Shown in pieces: positions 620 through 20,474 of a stretch of DNA of 20,474 nucleotides. The translations under genes were made by a program, and so were the position numbers. Within the stretch, counting starts at the first letter, position 1; each line of letters opens with the position of its first letter. The notes under the pieces were generated by a model. It had not been told where the DNA came from. It ran no database searches and worked only from the letters and a program-made list of their open reading frames with translations. Origin of the DNA: a virus; IMG/VR virus record IMGVR_UViG_3300027792_000065, positions 1 through 20,474 of that record, one strand, 5' to 3'.

Positions 620-1102
620 TCAGTCTTTCCATAAGATTTGTTTTAACTGGTGACTCCATATAACTCCTACTCCTTTTTTGTTTTGTAAATAGTTTTTATA
701 CATATACCGTATTAATACTTCTCCGTGACAAGTCCTTGGAGCACAAAAACAGATAAAGTAAACACAGGTATTTTTTATGGTCGTTAAGTAAAGGAAAAGG
801 TTTTCAAACTCCGTTCGAAGTGGATGCAAGCGATCCTTCATAATTTCTAATAAGTATGATTCATACTCCTTAACCGCTTCGGTTGCCGTCATACCTCCAG
901 GCCGGATTAAATATGGATTCCCGAATATAGAAAAATCCTTTACATCTACAAAGCCCCATTTATTTTTTTTCGAAGTAACATTAGAATAACTACTTTTACG
1001 ACCAATGTAAATAAATAGGTTCTCCGCTCCAGTAACACGATCATTCCTTCTAATAGCATCAACCGGGAAGGTATGCAGATTAATAACTTGCAGTTTTACC
1101 AT
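620..1102 (-). CDS. DUF4326 domain-containing protein
   Basis: 160 aa. The sequence carries the features I associate with DUF4326: a YIGR motif near residues 32-35, a FGNPYLI motif near residue 60, a following helix with EAVKEYESYL, and a C-terminal CFCAPRTCHGEVL. This last motif resembles the CxCxPxxCHG signature of that family. The biochemical function of the family is not established to my knowledge; the conserved Cys/His end suggests a metal or nucleotide site. Start is ATG 1102, preceded by GGAAGGAG at good spacing. The gap upstream (1103-1173) holds a palindromic operator-like element, so this gene may have its own control. It ends inside the longer possible start of the next gene. Confidence 0.8.
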   Translation of the reverse strand: MVKLQVINLHTFPVDAIRRNDRVTGAENLFIYIGRKSSYSNVTSKKNKWGFVDVKDFSIFGNPYLIRPGGMTATEAVKEYESYLLEIMKDRLHPLRTEFENLFLYLTTIKNTCVYFICFCAPRTCHGEVLIRYMYKNYLQNKKGVGVIWSHQLKQILWKD

Positions 1103-1130
1103 TAATGACTCCTTCCAAATAAATTAACTT

Positions 1131-1158
1131 GATCACATCGTAAATTTACAAGATGATC
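1131..1158 (-). promoter_or_regulatory. Palindromic operator-like element upstream of DUF4326 gene
   Basis: In the 71-bp gap between ThyX and the DUF4326 gene. The core GTAAATTTAC (1140-1149) is a perfect 10-bp palindrome. At this site the dyad extends outward to GATCA (minus-strand 5' end) and TGATC (3' end), so 20 of 28 bases obey twofold symmetry. The same core, preceded by AACTGAT on the minus strand, recurs upstream of the ThyX and radical SAM genes and in the array at 20356-20474. It is likely a dimeric protein binding site or part of a phage promoter. Which of these it is cannot be told from sequence alone. Confidence 0.65.
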
Positions 1159-1173
1159 AGTTTAAGTTTATAC

Positions 1174-1854
1174 TTATAACTTCGCAAACAATAACGGGTA
1201 TTTGTCATTTACTTCCAATAAAACCATTCCCATCAGTTCTCGCATTCCAGGGGAGCAGGTCAAGGATATTCTTTGTTTAATTACGTGGCGCCACTGGCGA
1301 ATGTTCATGGTCGCCGCAATTGTAGTCTTTAGATCCAGAGGTAGAACCCCACGAGCAGTTTCTTGGTTTGTCAAAGCGCATAAGTTATTATATCCAGTTT
1401 CTATTTCCAGCATTGTTTCTACCCATGCACTTGATGCAGAAAACAAGTCATCTACCTGATTAGATTCATGTTTTTGTTTCTTGTATTCTTTCATAGATGT
1501 AAACCGACCGCAGATTACTTCAGGCAATGTAACCGGTTTAATTAAAACAAGGTCAGTTCCTGATTTACCAAGTAAATAATTATACCTTGTACTTTCCTGG
1601 GTATATGCCGCGATACGGTGTCTTACAAGTTGATTTGCAGTACCTCTTGAACAGGTTAAAATTAAAGTCAAATTCACATGTTCCAACACCGTTAAAAGTT
1701 CACCACCGGAAACAAGACGGTTTACAAACGAAGCTGCTCTTTCTTCTTCCGGTGCAGACTGGTTTGCGATTCGACCACAGAATTGGATTTGTTTAATCAA
1801 TTCTTCTTGCGTTTTTGGTTCATAAATCTGAACCGACGGCGATACAATAATCAT
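1174..1854 (-). CDS. thyX: Flavin-dependent thymidylate synthase ThyX
   Basis: 226 aa, close to the usual ThyX length. ThyX methylates dUMP to dTMP using methylene-tetrahydrofolate, NADPH and FAD. The signature RHRx7S is present at residues 78-88 (RHR, then S88 within QESTRYN), preceded by a LEH motif near residue 57 and QLVRHR. The C-terminal NIRQWRHVIKQR matches the conserved dUMP-binding region. The segment after it is diverged: CSPGMREL stands where AQWEIR-like sequence is usual. I chose ATG 1854 because AAAGGAG lies just upstream; an in-frame ATG at 1902 would overlap the operator-like repeat and lacks such a site. In this cluster it could supply dTMP, or conceivably a modified pyrimidine; the second idea is speculation. 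Confidence 0.92.
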   Translation of the reverse strand: MIIVSPSVQIYEPKTQEELIKQIQFCGRIANQSAPEEERAASFVNRLVSGGELLTVLEHVNLTLILTCSRGTANQLVRHRIAAYTQESTRYNYLLGKSGTDLVLIKPVTLPEVICGRFTSMKEYKKQKHESNQVDDLFSASSAWVETMLEIETGYNNLCALTNQETARGVLPLDLKTTIAATMNIRQWRHVIKQRISLTCSPGMRELMGMVLLEVNDKYPLLFAKL

Positions 1855-1873
1855 ATAAACTCCTTTTGTAATT

Positions 1874-1912
1874 AAAAAACCATTCGTAAATTTACAAATC
1901 AATCAGTTAAAT
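1874..1912 (-). promoter_or_regulatory. Palindromic operator-like element upstream of thyX
   Basis: Lies between the radical SAM stop codon (1918) and the ThyX ribosome binding site. Core GTAAATTTAC is at 1886-1895. On the minus strand it reads TTTAACTGATTGATTTG, then the core, then GAATGGTTTTTTAA. This is nearly identical over about 35 bp to the tandem repeat unit at 20356-20474, 18 kb away, and close to the element at 3241-3280. Such conservation outside coding sequence argues for a bound protein or a phage-specific promoter. Confidence 0.7.
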
Positions 1913-1917
1913 AACTA

Positions 1918-3222
1918 TTATAATTTAGTATAGGGTGTATACTTATAAACGATATCTCCGGCTTTATCAACCTTTACAGGCTTTAAAAGCCCATAGAAGT
2001 ATTTATATGGATTCTTTTTACTTTGTACATTATTCCAGATAGATCGAATATAGGCATACATAGTTAGTTCATAAGCTTGAGCTCTTTGGTAAGTTCCGGA
2101 GGTGTTATATCCTTCTGACAACCTCCACAAAAACGATTTATAGATCTGTAGGTGCTTGGATATATCACTAAAAGATACAAGTCCACCCTCCCCAGATTCA
2201 AACCGTTTACGGGCAATATAAAGAGCTTCTGTAAACTGACCACGGCTGTAATTCCATTTTTCATCAAGCCCGCAACAGCTTCCATTATGACAACGATCTT
2301 TATGGTGAGCGTCTGATACATAAAACCGGAGGCCAAGCTTTGTACAAAGTCGATGCATTTTGTCGATATACTTTTCTTTTATTTTATAGTTAAGCCGTAA
2401 ATACCCGCTTGCCGACTGAGTATTCTTTTTGTAAAAATCCAATACGTCAAAGCCTAAAATTTCGCTCATTTTATTATACCGCTTTTTGAGTCCAGGGTGG
2501 ACACGACCCTCCAGACAAAAGAACTCGGTACTGACGGCCGTGGCGCCTGCATTTTTGGCCGATGATATTAAGTAAAGGTATTCATCCTTTACATCGCTTA
2601 AGCCTATTATAAACGGGCGCAGACGTAATGTAACCCCACCTGTACTGTACCGGGTCAGCTCCGCCATAGCTTTAATTCTATCTTCCGGTGAGGGAACACC
2701 TTGTTCCATTTTTTTAGCCTTATCCGCATTGTAATTAATAATGGAAAACTTTACATTCCACAGTCCTTTTGACTTTTCAAAAAGGTTCATATATCTATCG
2801 TCTTGAACCCACCACGTACTCTTTGTAGAAAAACAAATAGGGTATTTAATCCGTAAAAATACCTTCAGTAAATCAAGGCCGACACCATACTGTTTTTCGA
2901 ACATATCGAATGGATCACTTAATCCACCCCACTGGAGAACACGTTTTTCCTGCACGTATCCAGAAAATTGTGTCTTAAGTTTACAGGTAAAAATATCATC
3001 TACCTTTTGGACACTTACAGATTCTGGAGCGATGGTTTGGTAACTTTCGTTTACATTTACAAAGCTCTTGTTCATGTGTTTTAACTCTCGCTGGAAATAA
3101 GAAAAACAGTACAGGCAATCGAACGAGCATCTACTGTACTGATCGAACGTCACCGGCATAGAACAGTCCAGTATTTCCCCACTCCACCGAGGCGATGAAT
3201 ATCCATGCTTTAACTTTTCCAT
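1918..3222 (-). CDS. Radical SAM enzyme, spore-photoproduct-lyase-like
   Basis: 434 aa. Radical SAM enzymes use a [4Fe-4S] cluster to cleave S-adenosylmethionine and start radical chemistry. The cluster-binding CxxxCxxC is clear at C32, C36 and C39 (CSFDCLYC), followed by an aromatic-rich loop. QWGGLSDPFD (97-106) and STKSTWW (132-138) recall the SPL-like subgroup, which acts on thymine-derived lesions, but I cannot assign the substrate. A second cysteine group (C311, C316, C317) might hold an additional metal site. Start ATG 3222 has AAGGAA upstream. It sits between a P-loop kinase and ThyX, behind an operator-like element. That context fits DNA base hypermodification, where phage radical SAM enzymes are known, though repair or tRNA modification are alternatives. 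Confidence 0.88.
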   Translation of the reverse strand: MEKLKHGYSSPRWSGEILDCSMPVTFDQYSRCSFDCLYCFSYFQRELKHMNKSFVNVNESYQTIAPESVSVQKVDDIFTCKLKTQFSGYVQEKRVLQWGGLSDPFDMFEKQYGVGLDLLKVFLRIKYPICFSTKSTWWVQDDRYMNLFEKSKGLWNVKFSIINYNADKAKKMEQGVPSPEDRIKAMAELTRYSTGGVTLRLRPFIIGLSDVKDEYLYLISSAKNAGATAVSTEFFCLEGRVHPGLKKRYNKMSEILGFDVLDFYKKNTQSASGYLRLNYKIKEKYIDKMHRLCTKLGLRFYVSDAHHKDRCHNGSCCGLDEKWNYSRGQFTEALYIARKRFESGEGGLVSFSDISKHLQIYKSFLWRLSEGYNTSGTYQRAQAYELTMYAYIRSIWNNVQSKKNPYKYFYGLLKPVKVDKAGDIVYKYTPYTKL

Positions 3223-3240
3223 ATTTTAATTTCCTTAAGT

Positions 3241-3280
3241 TAAAAACCATTCGTAAATTTACAAGGTAATCAATTAAATA
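3241..3280 (-). promoter_or_regulatory. Palindromic operator-like element upstream of radical SAM gene
   Basis: Core GTAAATTTAC is at 3253-3262, followed on the minus strand by GAATGGTTTTTAAC, identical to the other copies. The upstream flank reads TTTAATTGATTACCTT, a variant of TTTAACTGATTGATTT. The element overlaps the last codons and TGA stop (3270-3272) of the kinase gene. The element has therefore been kept while serving as coding sequence on one side. Confidence 0.65.
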
Positions 3281-3824
3281 ATTCCTTTTGTATTTTAACA
3301 ATATTATTTGAGAACTGCACACTGGTTCCATTATGTAGAATAGTAATCCCGGGAACTTCTTTTAATATTCTACTGATCTTTGTAACCCGACCACGATAAA
3401 AAACAAGATTAAACGGCTTCCCTTTTAACTGTCTTTCGTGAATCCGCTTTACTGTTAAGTCCGGCGGAGTAACCAATACAAAGATCTTTACTTCTGCAAT
3501 CGTACTGCAAAAAACAAGAAAGTCTCTTGTAAATAAACGGTCACCTTCAAATAATACATGAGCTTTTGGGTTACTCGAATGAACCCACTCTAAGAATTCT
3601 TTTACTAATGGCATTACGCTCATTGACAAACCATCAGTTCCAGGAAACATATTTCCAGGTTCATACGTTCCAAGAACATATCCGGTTGGAATTTTAGTAT
3701 ATACCATGCCTTTAAAATCTGTAATAGCTGGTTGACCTTTTCCTTCTGATTGTTCTTTTATAATTGTTTCCACGATGGTTGATTTGCCAGTGGCTGGCGC
3801 TCCGCCGATTGCAATAATTTTCAT
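3270..3824 (-). CDS. P-loop kinase, resembling phage 5-hydroxymethyluracil DNA kinases
   Basis: 184 aa. Walker A is GAPATGKST (G8-T16), at the very N-terminus as in small nucleotide or nucleic-acid kinases. Two further blocks, GTYEPGNMFPGTDGLSM in the first half and VLFEGDRLF near residues 110-118, are reminiscent of the kinase that in many phages is linked to a ParB-like domain and in thymidine-hypermodifying phages phosphorylates 5-hydroxymethyl-dU in DNA. That specific link is from memory of the family and needs a profile search. The start overlaps the stop of the ParB-like gene as ATGA (3821-3824), so the two are translationally coupled. A deoxynucleotide kinase is the main alternative. 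Confidence 0.75.
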   Translation of the reverse strand: MKIIAIGGAPATGKSTIVETIIKEQSEGKGQPAITDFKGMVYTKIPTGYVLGTYEPGNMFPGTDGLSMSVMPLVKEFLEWVHSSNPKAHVLFEGDRLFTRDFLVFCSTIAEVKIFVLVTPPDLTVKRIHERQLKGKPFNLVFYRGRVTKISRILKEVPGITILHNGTSVQFSNNIVKIQKELFN

Positions 3825-4492
3825 AACTCCTCCACTTCATCTTTTATATCTGTTCCGGAGGTATACCTTTTTAACTGTTTCCAATTAATGGTTTTTTGAT
3901 TATGACGTAAATCCAGATTCTTAAACAGATCATCCATCTGGTTTTCGTCTTCCTTGTCAAACACAACTATAATAAATTTCGTTTTCCCGGAGATAGTACC
4001 TTCAAGATCTATTTCGGGCAAGGCACCTGGAAGCTGTTCACTTAGATTAAACATTAAAACTTCCTTTTCGGTAAAGCCTGTTTCAAAGTTGTTCTCTTTG
4101 TAAACATCACTATTGAAATATTTTATCAACGCTTCATTATCCCATTCACTCCACTCTGGGGATTTGTTATCTGCCAACCCGTATGCATCTGCCGCCGCTT
4201 TGCTTCCAAAGTCAACACGCCGGATTAATACCATTCTTTCATTATTGTGCTGAAGAGCAAGGCACGTTCCATTCCCTTTACGTACGACACCATCTTCAGT
4301 ATAAACAATGACAGGAGAAACCTGACCGAACTGTTTCAATACCGCTGCAAGACGTAAAATATTTTCCTTGTCATGCTTCCTTTGATTTTCCGGCCATAAT
4401 TTTATAGATGACATAGGAACCCACTCTTCCTTGGCTTTTTTGACCCGTTCTGCTATTGAATTTAATACGACCGGTGCTTTTTTAATAGCCAT
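3821..4492 (-). CDS. ParB/Srx-fold N-terminal domain protein
   Basis: 223 aa. Residues about 25-115 look like a ParB N-terminal domain: an SSIKLWPENQRKHD strand-loop, a helix ending LKQFGQVSPVIVY, then VVRKGNGTCLALQ in place of the usual GxxR/H box. Next is a GLADNKSPEWSEWD segment seen in phage ParB-like proteins associated with DNA modification. No helix-turn-helix typical of partition ParB is obvious, so a plasmid-partition role is unlikely. The C-terminal 60 residues have a VVFDKED segment and a charged tail. AAAGGAG precedes the ATG at 4492. Coupling by ATGA overlap to the kinase suggests one functional unit, perhaps targeting the kinase to DNA (inference). Confidence 0.8.
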   Translation of the reverse strand: MAIKKAPVVLNSIAERVKKAKEEWVPMSSIKLWPENQRKHDKENILRLAAVLKQFGQVSPVIVYTEDGVVRKGNGTCLALQHNNERMVLIRRVDFGSKAAADAYGLADNKSPEWSEWDNEALIKYFNSDVYKENNFETGFTEKEVLMFNLSEQLPGALPEIDLEGTISGKTKFIIVVFDKEDENQMDDLFKNLDLRHNQKTINWKQLKRYTSGTDIKDEVEEL

Positions 4493-4502
4493 ACAATCTC
4501 CT

Positions 4503-6623
4503 TTAAATTATTGTTGATTTGTAAATTAAATTTTTTATTCTATTAGATGGTGTATACGTAACCGTACTCCCAAACCCATCTATTTTTTCAAGTTTTGTTT
4601 TTGTCAGTACTCTTAATATGGTAAGATTTTCAACATGCCGTTTTACAGTCGGCGTCGGTAGTCCAATAGCTTCTGAAACTTTCTGTATATCTACTCCAGC
4701 CTTTGCTTCATAAATAAACCGAAGTATATTATAATTATTTTTGTGGACTGTACTCACCGCCACTTCTTTTAAAAGATCGTAAATACTTTCGTTATCTTCT
4801 GTAAATGAATTTATTATATGCAAAGCAATATATAATTTATAGTACTGTTCGGTAAGTCTGGTAGAATATTCTACCATTGGTTTTAATAGAATTTCACCGG
4901 TTCTGTTGTCCCTGATAACAGATCCACGTATTAATCCAGTCCATTGAGCCAGTGCAATAATTTGTTCTTTCTTTTCAATACTCGGTTGGAAAGTAAATTC
5001 AAATTTATAGTTTAAGAATTTAGCCATTACTTCTTGGAGTTCTTCCTGCATAGAACTTTTACTTCCTGACGATATACTGCTCATTATTTTAAACAAAACA
5101 TTTCGTTCCCCTACAATGGAAGTATCTAACTGGACATCAAATCGAATAAACCGTTCTCCGAGTGCTGTTAAGTTTTCAGAAAAGAAATCAATAATACCGG
5201 TTACTCCAGCGATAATACCGAACTTTGATTTATATTTTTTGTCTTCACCATTACCGAACGGTTTTGAACAGTTACCATCAAAGCAATCACGGAGTGTTGA
5301 AATTATTTCTTGTTGACTCGTTATATTCATTCCGGTAAGTGTCGTAAAGTCTTTAATGCATACATCTCTATTGTTTACTCGTGCAACAAGGGAAGGGTCT
5401 TTACCATCGTCTCTTGCGAACCCGCTTATTAATACATGAGGCGTCAATGAAGAAATTGATTCTACTTCTGGAGTACTTCCTAACGACATTAAAATTTCAC
5501 TTTTACCTGACCCGGAAGGACCAACAAGGAATAACCAGACCGAAGCACCTGGAAGCCTATTCGCAACGATTGTTGCCAAAACAATATCAACACTGTTTGT
5601 ATTTTGCAATAGTAAATGTTTATTAAAAACGTCATGCACTTCTTTAATTGAACATCCGGGTCCATCCAGCTTTACTTCTGGTATCGGTGTAGGGGTGCCT
5701 GATTTTGTTTCTACTTCTATTTCATTTATTCCCTTTGGTAAATCCTGTATATTGTCATTTATATAGGTTATCGTTTTTTTACTGTTTTTATTTAGATCAG
5801 TATATAAATCACGAACGTCGTATCCATTTTTAAGCTCATCATCCCAGTGAATAAACTTAAGGCTTTTACACTTTCCTTTTAATAGTTTGTAAATTTTAAT
5901 TGACCCTTTTTTACCCGACCCCAATATTACTTTATCATTTTCAATTCTGTCATAATCATTATCTAATAAAACAGTTACTTCCTTATTTACAAATACGTCA
6001 ACAAAGTCTCGATTAAAACTAAGAGCTCCAGGAAGTCCTATAGAACAACCAATTAACCGGTCTCTTCTTAAAATTTCATCCATTACCATTGTATCCCACT
6101 GTCCTTCACATAAGTAAACAACCGGTGAGTCTATAAGATTTTTTCGAAAGTAAAGTCCTTTATTTGTTCCAGCACTTGAAATAAATTTATACCTTTTGTC
6201 AAAGGCTTTATAATCGTACAAAGCTATATCCATTACTGACCCGTCTTTTTTCAAAGATGGAACATAGTATTTATCTATAATAGGATTATAGCCTACATCA
6301 AAAATGGCAAGCGTTTTAATACCTATACCCCGGTCTGAAGATAGTAACTCATATCTATCATAATTAATATTTTCCAACCCGAAGGTATATAGTTCATTTA
6401 GAAAGGTTTGATATCCGCCTTCTTTTCCACATATTTTGCAGTCCCATTTTTTTGTTTTAACATTTACAAAAAAAGTCTTTTTTGGCTTTGGTGATTTTGA
6501 ACTTTTTGAACCACAAAAAATACATGTTCCAGAAACATTTTCCATGTCAGAGGCGAATCCCGCTGGAGTAAAACCATGTTGTTTAAAAATAGTGAGGTTC
6601 GGGTTTTTAAATAAGTTATCCAT
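4503..6623 (-). CDS. DNA primase-helicase (zinc ribbon, TOPRIM, P-loop ATPase, winged helix)
   Basis: 706 aa; unites the activities that make RNA primers and probably unwind DNA at the phage fork. An N-terminal zinc ribbon has C34-x2-C37 and C62-x2-C65. A TOPRIM domain follows with its catalytic Glu at E173 (LCEGQWD) and acidic pair D221/D223 (LLDNDYD), then DVRDLY near 269. A Walker A motif is at 368-375 (GPSGSGKS); the downstream CIKDF may be a Walker B variant, and GERFIRFD looks like a sensor/arginine region of AAA+ type rather than a DnaB RecA-type helicase. A winged-helix-like segment (VSEAIGLPTPTVKRHVENL) ends the protein. Start has GGAAGGA upstream. The order resembles VapE- or P4-like primase-ATPases more than T7 gp4. 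Confidence 0.85.
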   Translation of the reverse strand: MDNLFKNPNLTIFKQHGFTPAGFASDMENVSGTCIFCGSKSSKSPKPKKTFFVNVKTKKWDCKICGKEGGYQTFLNELYTFGLENINYDRYELLSSDRGIGIKTLAIFDVGYNPIIDKYYVPSLKKDGSVMDIALYDYKAFDKRYKFISSAGTNKGLYFRKNLIDSPVVYLCEGQWDTMVMDEILRRDRLIGCSIGLPGALSFNRDFVDVFVNKEVTVLLDNDYDRIENDKVILGSGKKGSIKIYKLLKGKCKSLKFIHWDDELKNGYDVRDLYTDLNKNSKKTITYINDNIQDLPKGINEIEVETKSGTPTPIPEVKLDGPGCSIKEVHDVFNKHLLLQNTNSVDIVLATIVANRLPGASVWLFLVGPSGSGKSEILMSLGSTPEVESISSLTPHVLISGFARDDGKDPSLVARVNNRDVCIKDFTTLTGMNITSQQEIISTLRDCFDGNCSKPFGNGEDKKYKSKFGIIAGVTGIIDFFSENLTALGERFIRFDVQLDTSIVGERNVLFKIMSSISSGSKSSMQEELQEVMAKFLNYKFEFTFQPSIEKKEQIIALAQWTGLIRGSVIRDNRTGEILLKPMVEYSTRLTEQYYKLYIALHIINSFTEDNESIYDLLKEVAVSTVHKNNYNILRFIYEAKAGVDIQKVSEAIGLPTPTVKRHVENLTILRVLTKTKLEKIDGFGSTVTYTPSNRIKNLIYKSTII

Positions 6624-14605: not shown

Positions 14606-14642
14606 AAAAAGGGAGAAGGCTGTTTTGCCTTCTACCCTTTTT
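14606..14642 (-). terminator. Strong hairpin terminator before helicase gene
   Basis: Minus-strand arms AAAAAGGGTAGAAGGC and GCCTTCTCCCTTTTT pair over 15 bp with one bulged T and loop AAAACA. The 3' arm ends in five T, followed by GCGTTTT. The A-rich 5' side makes it potentially bidirectional. It follows the 102-aa gene (stop at 14673) and ends 8 bp before the helicase ATG. Confidence 0.85.
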
Positions 14643-15030: not shown

Positions 15031-15044
15031 AATGGTATGATATA

Positions 15045-15073
15045 AATATACTATAATTTAATAATAAATGCAA
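15045..15073 (-). promoter_or_regulatory. Sigma70-like promoter for 102-aa gene
   Basis: On the minus strand, -35 TTGCAT (15068-15073), a 17-bp spacer and -10 TATATT (15045-15050). The spacer end and -10 read ATTAAATTATAGTATATT, identical to the promoter at 17392-17420. An AGAA-TAT-TTCT dyad (15084-15094) lies just upstream of the -35 and might be an operator. Confidence 0.65.
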
Positions 15074-15185
15074 ACAATTTCTTAGAATATTTCTACCGAA
15101 CAGTTTAACCATAATAAAATCAGTAACTTACAATATTATTTTTTTTTATTCAAACCACAATTAAATTAAAAAAAAGTCAATACAA
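15074..15185. other. AT-rich intergenic stretch
   Basis: Part of the 263-bp gene-free interval 14982-15244. Apart from the promoter, leader hairpin and terminator listed separately, it holds A/T runs and no ORF with a ribosome binding site on either strand. A weak second promoter cannot be excluded. Confidence 0.5.
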
Positions 15186-15220
15186 ATAAAAAAAAAGAAA
15201 ACCAATAAACGGTTTTCTTT
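15186..15220 (-). terminator. Rho-independent terminator after 94-aa gene
   Basis: Minus-strand AAAGAAAACC and GGTTTTCTTT form a 10-bp stem with loop GTTTATT, followed by a run of T (plus 15188-15196). It lies 25 bp past the stop at 15245. Two TTTTGTAAATTA direct repeats stand between the stop and the hairpin. Confidence 0.88.
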
Positions 15221-16269: not shown

Positions 16270-16296
16270 TAAAAAACTCTGTACATTTATACAGAG
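16270..16296 (-). terminator. Short hairpin terminator after 85-aa secreted protein gene
   Basis: Minus-strand CTCTGTA and TACAGAG form a 7-bp stem with loop TAAATG, followed by TTTTTT. It starts 13 bp past the stop at 16309. The short stem and the lack of a following promoter suggest partial termination. Confidence 0.75.
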
Positions 16297-16308
16297 CGTT
16301 ATATACGT

Positions 16309-17348: not shown

Positions 17349-17391
17349 ATCAGGCTCCTTTTGTTTATATAGTTGTTTTTCTTCTACTATT

Positions 17392-17420
17392 AATATACTA
17401 TAATTTAATTATTTTCACAA
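17392..17420 (-). promoter_or_regulatory. Sigma70-like promoter for the small-gene operon
   Basis: On the minus strand, -35 TTGTGA (17415-17420), a 17-bp spacer and -10 TATATT (17392-17397). The last 12 bp of the spacer and the -10 are identical to the promoter at 15045-15073. It lies about 45 bp ahead of the first gene of the operon. Confidence 0.65.
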
Positions 17421-17513: not shown

Positions 17514-17546
17514 ATAAAAAAAGAACCTTGTCAAAAAGGTTCTTTT
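17514..17546 (-). terminator. Rho-independent terminator of the tail gene operon
   Basis: Minus-strand AAAAGAACCTT and AAGGTTCTTTT form an 11-bp stem with loop TTTGAC, followed by a T run (plus 17516-17522). It stands 26 bp past the stop at 17572. A TTTGTAAATTTC half-match to the dispersed palindrome lies between the stop and the hairpin. Confidence 0.9.
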
Positions 17547-18182: not shown

Positions 18183-19943
18183 TTAAATAAGTTCTACGAA
18201 TTTTCCTTTTGTTAAGACTTCTTCTTCATAATCATATTCATCAAAACCACCTGCTTCTTGTGGAACACGATGACTCCCTTCATCTCCAAACGAAAATATT
18301 TTGTCTTCGGTTCCAAAAGAATATGTCAATTGTACAAAAACAGCGGCGGGAGAAATCAATTCCAACATACTTTGAATATTTCCAGGAGGATGAATATCCG
18401 TCGTACATTGCAATTGATATCCCGCCGGATAGAATTCTAAATAGTGAACCATATTTGACTGACATATAATCTTCATTGCTATAATTAATACTTCCGGTTC
18501 ACCGTGTGATTTATTTGTAAAGATTTTTAATTGGATATCTTTTTTAAACTCGGCATCACTCTGACCCGCTTTTCGTATAGCGCCAACGAGTAGACCATTT
18601 AGATCTAAGATACTCCCAGTCTTGTTTAAATTTCTTATATGTTTCATTTCGTATATAAGAAATTCAAGTTCTTGTAGTGGAGTCGTACAGATAGATAACA
18701 ATTTAATTAGGTTTGTAGCTTGTTTAAATTGTTCTTTCAGTAAATTTACAGCACGATCAGTTACATTCGGTATATAGTCTGGAACCGAAACGGGTATAAT
18801 ACTACCTATTATTTCATTGGAAGTATAAATTATACCATCTATATTGTTTGCCACTGGGAGAATAGACCCGGACAGACTATGTGTCGTCCAGATAATTCCA
18901 TTTATATATACTTCTGGAAGTTCTATAACTTCTCCAACGTCAACCGTACTGTTCGCATCAAACCCCGCTTGATTATTGTATTGGTCCGCTATTTGTGCCG
19001 CTGATAAAGCACCAGCAACGATTCTAAATTCATCAATCTTACCATCAAGTGCATAAGACGAAAAACCTAAATAAAAAACATTTCCTATATCAGGGATTGT
19101 TGCGGGTATTGTTCCGACAAAAGATAATGTTTTTGAAGAAGCATCAGCGTATAATTTTAGCCTATTACTGTTACCCGATAATGTTCCGTCATACACCCAT
19201 ACTAAATGTGATAACACTCCGGCAGTTAAAAAACTATCTGATATATATGCAGAATCATTAGTTGTTTGTGATAAATATAAACGGAGGTTACTTGACTCTG
19301 TACTCAGTTGTAGAAGGCTGGTGCCGTTATATTTCCTAAAAATTACGTCAGTTTGACCGAGAGCATCTTGACTGAAAAAACCCATAAACGTCATTTTTTC
19401 AGCGTTGTTAATTTGAGTAATATCCCCAAAGTTACTATTAGAATTACTACCATTAAACTCTGGAGCCTTCTTTACTTTTCCGGTTTGTGCATAAGTAATA
19501 TTCGCATCTGTCGCGGTATAATTACCTGTTGCATCAGTTAAGTTCGCACTTCCATTTTCTCCATGGACAACCAAGGCGTGGTCAATTGCACCATCATAAT
19601 TATCCTTCCAGGTGTCAACGCTTGAAGCGACGTTGACGGTTGACCCGCCACACCATGCATAAAGCTTTGTTCCTTTACCGGTGGATGCACTCTGGGAAGG
19701 GTCTCGATATACGATACCGATTGTTTTAGCCGTTCGGTCAAATTGGAACCTGTCGAACGGGATTAAGTCTCCGTCCTCATCACAGATAACAAAATCCCCA
19801 CCGTCGGATCGATAACATAGTTCGACAAGGTCTTCGATTGCTTTACCTTCTGACATCATCCATGGTACATTCGTCCCATCAACCGTAACACCGGTCGCTT
19901 GGATTTCACAATAGTATTTACTATCAAGATATGGAGTCGGCAT
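18183..19943 (-). CDS. Tail/baseplate protein: DUF2341-like + LamG + DUF2612-like fusion
   Basis: 586 aa. Residues about 1-105 resemble DUF2341 (SDGGDFVICDEDGDLIPFD, then a LYAWCGG strand), usually found ahead of LamG domains. Residues about 115-325 form a LamG/concanavalin-like jelly roll (LSHLVWVYDG, LDGKIDEFRI, ALSAAQIADQYN), a probable glycan-binding unit. A 21-residue tandem repeat follows: INGIIWTTHSLSGSILPV (347-364) and IDGIIYTSNEIIGSIIPV (368-385). Residues about 392-545 look like a phage baseplate domain of DUF2612 type (LLKEQF, LDLNGLLVGAIRKAGQSDAEF, SHGEPEVL). The acidic tail ends in VLTKGKFVELI. Joining a glycan-binding module to a baseplate domain would place host recognition on the baseplate itself. 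AGGA precedes the ATG. Confidence 0.72.
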   Translation of the reverse strand: MPTPYLDSKYYCEIQATGVTVDGTNVPWMMSEGKAIEDLVELCYRSDGGDFVICDEDGDLIPFDRFQFDRTAKTIGIVYRDPSQSASTGKGTKLYAWCGGSTVNVASSVDTWKDNYDGAIDHALVVHGENGSANLTDATGNYTATDANITYAQTGKVKKAPEFNGSNSNSNFGDITQINNAEKMTFMGFFSQDALGQTDVIFRKYNGTSLLQLSTESSNLRLYLSQTTNDSAYISDSFLTAGVLSHLVWVYDGTLSGNSNRLKLYADASSKTLSFVGTIPATIPDIGNVFYLGFSSYALDGKIDEFRIVAGALSAAQIADQYNNQAGFDANSTVDVGEVIELPEVYINGIIWTTHSLSGSILPVANNIDGIIYTSNEIIGSIIPVSVPDYIPNVTDRAVNLLKEQFKQATNLIKLLSICTTPLQELEFLIYEMKHIRNLNKTGSILDLNGLLVGAIRKAGQSDAEFKKDIQLKIFTNKSHGEPEVLIIAMKIICQSNMVHYLEFYPAGYQLQCTTDIHPPGNIQSMLELISPAAVFVQLTYSFGTEDKIFSFGDEGSHRVPQEAGGFDEYDYEEEVLTKGKFVELI

Positions 19944-19963: not shown

Positions 19964-20326
19964 TTATACGGCCGAATAAATAAGTCTGTCTACCTGAACC
20001 ACCGTTCCACTAACGATTGTTAATGGAGTAACGAGGCCTGTTGCTGGAACCTCCACAACCATATCACCGTTTCCATCGCATAGTTGTATTTTGGAAGGTG
20101 TTCCAGAAAGGATTGCAGTTTCTGAAATTGGAGTTTCATCGACTTCAAATTGCCAGTCCTCTAAAGTTCCAGCTCCAAGAACAGTCAGTTCAATTGGATC
20201 AACCTCCAACAAGGTCTGTCCGGCTGAATTTAGCACTTTTAAAATAGGATCGCCTTCGGCAAGTAGAGCCGTTCTTGTGTCTGTCGCGTGACTTATTTTT
20301 ACGGCATTACTATGTACTGTTGACAT
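19964..20326 (-). CDS. Small beta-rich structural-region protein
   Basis: 120 aa, family not recognised. Composition is acidic, rich in Thr, Val and Leu with alternating strands (ILKVLNSAGQTLLEVDPIEL, IQLCDGNGDMVVEVPA, LTIVSGTVVQVDRLIYSAV in parts), like small virion, tail-completion or neck proteins, and with no membrane segment. AAAGGAG lies just upstream of ATG 20326. It is the first gene after the tandem repeat array and is followed 20 bp later by the baseplate fusion gene. A structural role is inferred from position only. Confidence 0.6.
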   Translation of the reverse strand: MSTVHSNAVKISHATDTRTALLAEGDPILKVLNSAGQTLLEVDPIELTVLGAGTLEDWQFEVDETPISETAILSGTPSKIQLCDGNGDMVVEVPATGLVTPLTIVSGTVVQVDRLIYSAV

Positions 20327-20355
20327 ACAAGCTCCTTTATTTTTTTAAATGAATA

Positions 20356-20474
20356 ACTATTTGTAAATTTACAAATCAATCAGTTAAATATCAGTTAAAA
20401 ACCATTCGTAAATTTACAAATCAATCAGTTAAATATCAGTTAAAAACCATTCGTAAATTTACAAATCAATCAGT
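20356..20474 (-). repeat. Tandem 45-bp palindrome-bearing repeat array (at least 2.6 copies)
   Basis: Cores GTAAATTTAC at 20363-20372, 20408-20417 and 20453-20462 are spaced exactly 45 bp. The last two units are identical as far as visible; the gene-proximal one differs on its 3' flank (minus strand ACAAATAG instead of ACGAATGG) and there forms a 14-bp perfect palindrome TTGTAAATTTACAA. The linker itself duplicates TTTAACTGAT 11 bp apart. The array runs off the window. Single copies of the unit occur at 1131-1158, 1874-1912 and 3241-3280. Likely multi-site operator, promoter array or iteron-type origin. Confidence 0.85.

Follow-up and report, generated by a model that had tools for sequence, protein, structure and literature searches.

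Copies of a short, palindrome-containing element are dispersed between the genes of a phage and form a tandem array at a boundary of its tail genes. The window (the whole stretch of 20,474 nucleotides analysed, IMG/VR record IMGVR_UViG_3300027792_000065) had been reported in a preliminary description to carry a 45-bp array at its right edge; the tandem is real, but it is not a one-off feature, with single copies at three further places in the window and two in an adjoining contig. Tentatively, the element may be a lineage-specific DNA-binding site of the operator or stoperator type, to which a protein would bind and which would have been amplified at a hypervariable boundary of the tail module.

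Array and dispersed copies of the element

The right-edge array (20355-20474; Table 1) is AT-rich and has a period of 45, 2.7 copies and 97% matches with no indels according to TRF. Its palindrome cores, GTAAATTTAC, start at 20363, 20408 and 20453, and the two spacings of 45 bear out the earlier claim of at least three palindromic copies at exactly 45 bp. The extra half-element previously reported in the linker is also present, with TTTAACTGAT (complementary strand) having a second copy 11 bp away in each linker (20379-20388 and 20390-20399; 20424-20433 and 20435-20444). Allowing up to three mismatches, the 17-bp palindrome TTTGTAAATTTACAAAT has 10 strand-matches versus 0.76 ± 1.19 in shuffles. 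A CRISPR array was rejected based on the contiguous, near-identical 45-bp units and the lack of unique spacers, and a further GTAAATTTAC at 18740 was rejected as an element because it lies inside coding sequence.

Table 1. Element copies, array components and neighbouring genes in the window.
Feature	Position	Strand	Remarks
Single element copy, more divergent	1123..1166	-	thyX / DUF4326 gap; 34.6 bits
Single element copy	1869..1912	-	434-aa gene / thyX gap; 44.2 bits
Single element copy	3236..3279	-	P-loop kinase gene / 434-aa gene gap; 43.7 bits
45-bp tandem array	20355..20474	-	3 palindromes visible, cut by window end; gene-strand unit ACTGATTGATTTGTAAATTTACGAATGGTTTTTAACTGATATTTA
Palindrome 1, perfect	20359..20376		ATTTGTAAATTTACAAAT
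Palindrome 2	20404..20421		ATTCGTAAATTTACAAAT
Palindrome 3	20449..20466		ATTCGTAAATTTACAAAT
Two TTTAACTGAT direct repeats, 11 bp apart	20379..20399	-	First linker; recur at 20424-20444
DUF4326 gene	620..1102	-	Downstream of 1123-1166 element
thyX (PF02511)	1174..1854	-	Downstream of 1869-1912 element
434-aa gene	1918..3222	-	Downstream of 3236-3279 element; radical-SAM-like by eye, CLYCF motif
Baseplate protein with LamG-like domain	18183..19943	-	C-terminal part matches the Alteromonas phage PT11-V22 gene directly after a 1446-bp baseplate gene
120-aa ORF, no known family	19964..20326	-	Directly downstream of array

The first matches to the array inside the window (39 bp at 100% and 43 bp at 91%) are the copies at 1869-1912 and 3236-3279, upstream of thyX and the 434-aa gene, respectively, while the copy at 1123-1166, upstream of the DUF4326 gene, has arms that form a longer palindrome with TGATCA on both sides; the palindromes of the three lie at 1886, 3253 and 1140. 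In the adjoining contig (IMG/VR contig IMGVR_UViG_3300027792_000059, 22,253 bases; hereafter G001), a reversed single copy is located between the terminase and a small membrane gene (2865-2908) and a truncated copy at 6181-6202 (22.4 bits, E 2.4e-5, sequence-only model). All six element loci in the window and G001 are intergenic, in sequence of which intergenic DNA makes up 5.9% (p ~7e-7 for the five loci first found). The element is wedged into the short gaps from a stop codon to the following start, which otherwise consist mostly of the ribosome-binding region, and at 3253 and the terminase locus it takes in the stop codon of the preceding gene. Five of the six loci are oriented with transcription, the exception being 2865-2908 in G001; the window genes (from a hand-made gene list) are all on the minus strand and the window copies point likewise.

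Across seven aligned copies, 18 of 44 columns are invariant despite unrelated flanks. An asymmetric 22-bp core, A[CT]TGATN3[CT]TTGTAAATTTA[CT] (in alternative notation, A[CT]TGAT-N3-YTTGTAAATTTA[CT]), is present at 6/6 loci and has six matches in the window versus none in 300 simulated windows. Conservation extends to the right half in several copies, and in several GGTTTTT follows the palindrome. The unit had been described as centred on a palindrome, which is indeed present, but the conserved unit is asymmetric and not merely that palindrome. The palindrome centre is ~42, 36, 35 and 41 bp from the ATG at the window loci, while for the two single G001 copies (6181 and 2882) the start codon is ~24 bp away.

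Array size and the tail-gene boundary

G001 has exactly 112 bases in common with the window end, and its array begins two bases past the stop codon of a baseplate-J gene (PF04865). The joined gene order would be J, the array, the 120-aa ORF, the LamG/baseplate protein, a 199-aa tail-fibre-like protein and a predicted terminator (17546-17519). In Alteromonas phage PT11-V22, the match to the C-terminal part of the window baseplate protein overlaps the end of the preceding 1446-bp baseplate gene, which matches J in size and place and so supports the join; tetranucleotide usage (window versus G001, r = 0.97) supports it weakly, as the nearest relative, G003, is about as similar. The window and G001 almost certainly adjoin.

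Both contigs end where the repeat graph forks. In a simulated de Bruijn graph, which assumes an assembler of this type and one genome, three units were assembled through at k ≥69 and gave 67 shared bases at k ≤67, while 112 shared bases at both ends arose, amongst the k values tried, only for k 69 to 111 and at least four units. Extension to the right, put forward in the preliminary description as the means of counting units, finds that the array continues in G001; as both contigs end in the identical 112 array bases, the simulation indicates at least four units, and the head-to-tail array before the tail-tip genes probably comprises four or more.

The gene adjoining the array had been called structural, though the 120-aa ORF has no recognised family and it is the next gene that encodes the baseplate/LamG protein. 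The LamG-like domain of this protein spans residues 165-319 and matches to known phage baseplate proteins are confined to the C-terminal part, which suggests that an adhesin domain was inserted at a variable site of the tail. For the 434-aa protein encoded downstream of a single copy, Pfam gave no match and 50,697 phage records contained no relative. Elsewhere in the window, T-tailed terminator-like hairpins were noted at 14614-14633, 16276-16297 and 17519-17546 (window total, 22; expected, 10.6), along with an intergenic gap of 263 bp that contains an A-rich low-complexity stretch (15157-15209). Another repeated intergenic motif (15041-15065 and 17388-17412; minus strand ~TTAAATTATAGTATATT, 92% over 25 bp) sits upstream of two early-region genes and is probably a separate promoter class.

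Distribution amongst relatives and the possibility of mobility

One contig, G002, possibly from the same sample as G001, is 99.98% identical to it over 15 kb and carries both of its single copies (2865-2908 and 6181). The nearest relative, G003 (MCP 87% identical; ~77% nucleotide identity), lacks the element at three comparable junctions: the terminase junction is a plain TAGGAG-type site, the counterpart of the 6181 junction is shorter by ~25 bp in the alignment, and J is followed directly by a different tail gene. The first two are empty sites with homologous flanking genes on both sides, and the junction after J is hypervariable, given the other tail gene in G003 and the overlapping baseplate genes in the Alteromonas phage. 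As judged from these sequences, gain of the element in the studied lineage would be a simpler reading than loss in G003.

Dispersed copies are absent from ~80 more distant loci, and a gap-against-gap comparison found no equivalent intergenic family in G003 and a few weak pairs in other relatives. Exact and degenerate IMG/VR searches recovered the element only in contigs of the studied phage, with other IMG/VR stretches matching at the core only (≤28/40 positions), and the sequence-only model found no full copies in selected relatives. The genome contigs covered by a host and prophage search had neither a 26-mer match nor a capsid relative, and no relatives of the replication-side contig were found in viral contigs via the DNA polymerase, the baseplate protein or the 434-aa gene. 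A comparison with phage records (blastn) gave weak matches only, the best (E 2e-4) being to Tenacibaculum phage PTm1 (L124 3001-3060), where an intergenic stretch that shares 80% identity with part of the array over ~60 bp scores only 9 bits with the element model; this match is probably due to chance in AT-rich DNA. The array, for which a check in related phages had been proposed, is found neither in G003 nor, by the degenerate IMG/VR searches, in any other phage. Its absence from G003 excludes a function conserved across the wider group and is still compatible with a lineage-specific function.

The empty sites in G003, the reversed copy and the tandem amplification make a serious rival of a small mobile intergenic repeat (REP- or MITE-like, mobilised through recombination or a transposase acting in trans) that would occupy intergenic sites only, expand in tandem and have no regulatory role, though on balance we regard this as unlikely. 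Presence in G001 and G002 and absence from G003 at two junctions with homologous flanks, ~40 bp of near-identity at unlinked sites with unrelated flanks, and the occurrence of both orientations and of tandem copies are all consistent with mobility, and palindromic intergenic repeats have colonised other viruses (PMC10664404). The MITE-like repeats of pithoviruses are likewise palindromic, intergenic, often clustered and present in one lineage but not in its sister (PMC10664404), paralleling the palindromic, intergenic, clustered and lineage-limited element here; the pithovirus repeats span ~140 bp, carry long terminal inverted repeats and have a putative TA duplication (PMC10664404), whereas the present element is ~40 bp and no target-site duplication was recognised by eye at the two empty-site comparisons. 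Further, no transposase occurs amongst the proteins examined, five of the six loci are co-oriented with placement always from stop codon to next start, and the most divergent copies retain the 22-bp core, as a binding site would.

Candidate functions and known systems

On the sense strand, predicted RNA folds range from z +0.07 to -1.25 across copies, with the exception of the 1140 copy (-14.3 kcal/mol, z -2.95). No conserved RNA structure was found, as all copies but that one fold no better than shuffles, and the element has no match in Rfam. An intrinsic terminator or processing hairpin acting at the RNA level could draw on the fold of the 1140 copy and on the GGTTTTT 3' of the palindrome in several copies, but it is very improbable given the shuffle-like folding of the others, the lack of an Rfam match and the ordinary GC-rich, T-tailed terminators predicted elsewhere in the window. 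A DNA-level binding site is favoured, since the DNA sequence is conserved and the RNA fold is not.

A regulator array and an iteron-like origin had both been suggested for the right-edge repeats. Iteron arrays of plasmid and phage origins are regular tandem direct repeats of a protein-binding unit, and the regular, AT-rich 45-bp tandem is of similar form; the window also encodes a primase/helicase with a weak winged-helix match at the primase C-terminus. A replication origin bound by a phage initiator is nevertheless highly doubtful: GC skew, positive over the whole of the joined 42 kb, does not reverse at the array, single copies are scattered before unrelated genes, the array lies within a baseplate/tail operon and not beside replication genes, and the element is absent from G003. 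The regulator part of the suggestion fared better and is favoured because copies occur only between genes, mostly in one orientation, with the DNA conserved without an RNA fold.

A promoter cassette for a phage-specific or alternative sigma factor, placed before accessory and tail genes in the manner of ESAS or of T4-type phages, seems rather improbable. At four of the six loci, the element is properly oriented towards a gene whose ATG lies 35-43 bp from the palindrome centre, and ESAS, as intergenic motifs with an inverted repeat, hold putative SigA promoters (PMC11373665). Sigma-70-like hexamers, however, are not in excess (77 found versus 75.6 expected) and no -35/-10 is conserved, the ~24 bp at G001 6181 and 2882 leaves little room for a promoter plus leader, and one locus is reversed. 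A cassette of the ESAS or PeSL type is possible and would require some unknown sigma factor.

The closest counterpart in the literature is the ESAS of cluster K mycobacteriophages, a 46-47-bp intergenic motif with an imperfect inverted repeat, found seven times in Adephagia upstream of gene starts (PMC11373665; Pope et al. 2011, PMC3203893), of unclear role (PMC11373665) and tied to SAS sites that are mostly in one orientation, rarely reversed and lacking at one homologous gene in a relative (PMC3203893; PMC11373665). The present element, at ~40-45 bp, is likewise intergenic, with an inverted repeat and several copies per genome. The present element differs in having no SigA-like -35/-10 hexamers at a spacing of 17-18 bp (columns 12-15 of the alignment vary), no 13-bp SAS (GGGATAGGAGCCC-like) at the start codon, where the upstream regions hold by eye only AAAGGAG-type sites, a continuous palindrome where ESAS have 17-bp arms separated by 12-14 bp, a tandem array and an unrelated sequence; based on the promoter hexamers and SAS, it is not classed as ESAS.

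The stoperators of cluster A (L5-type) mycobacteriophages are asymmetric repressor sites spread genome-wide, mostly in one orientation relative to transcription (PMC6550527, PMC9283540). They resemble the present element in being dispersed, asymmetric and largely co-oriented (here 5/6 loci), but a stoperator is bound by a monomer while the core here is a palindrome with tandem amplification, and neither a repressor nor an integrase was found amongst the window proteins tested, which may represent an incomplete genome. In T4-type phages, PeSL (promoter(early) stem-loop) cassettes, attributed to Arbiol et al. in 2010, reportedly recur in the gaps between genes, both in variable regions and where modules meet. 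The short units repeated between genes in a variable region are alike, though the present element has neither a sigma-70 early promoter nor a conserved stem-loop. Two further candidates were rejected: a ParB/parS partition site, prompted by a ParB-like protein (3821-4492) that has no Pfam ParB match, with no ParA amongst the genes seen, and an integron attC-like site, prompted by RYYYAAC-like ends that do not form the required inverted pair, with no integrase seen.

Under the favoured reading as a binding site, a putative protein, probably a dimer, would occupy TTGTAAATTTAC at six or more intergenic places, make a further contact with the ACTGAT arm and most likely control transcription, either at an operator or as a stoperator-like roadblock inside long co-directional operons. 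Amplification to at least four 45-bp units at the baseplate-J/tail boundary, presumably by slippage or unequal exchange, would have placed several adjacent binding sites before the tail-tip genes. Counting against a binding site are the lack of an HTH regulator or repressor amongst the window proteins tested (bar the weak primase winged-helix match), the lack of an equivalent in G003 and other relatives, the one reversed locus and a contig join that we infer; the conserved right half also exceeds what a simple dimer site would need.

Dispersed intergenic elements already known from phages (ESAS, stoperators and PeSL) are only partly explained. The empty sites at homologous junctions in a close relative, together with an array where tail modules swap, raise the question of whether elements of this kind are regulators that were acquired or passengers that assist recombination between modules. 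It is decidedly improbable, but conceivable, that the element represents a new family of phage regulatory elements, short and restricted to one lineage, whose members disperse into intergenic gaps and multiply in tandem at the tail boundary; if so, array copy number could tune the expression of the tail-tip and adhesin genes.
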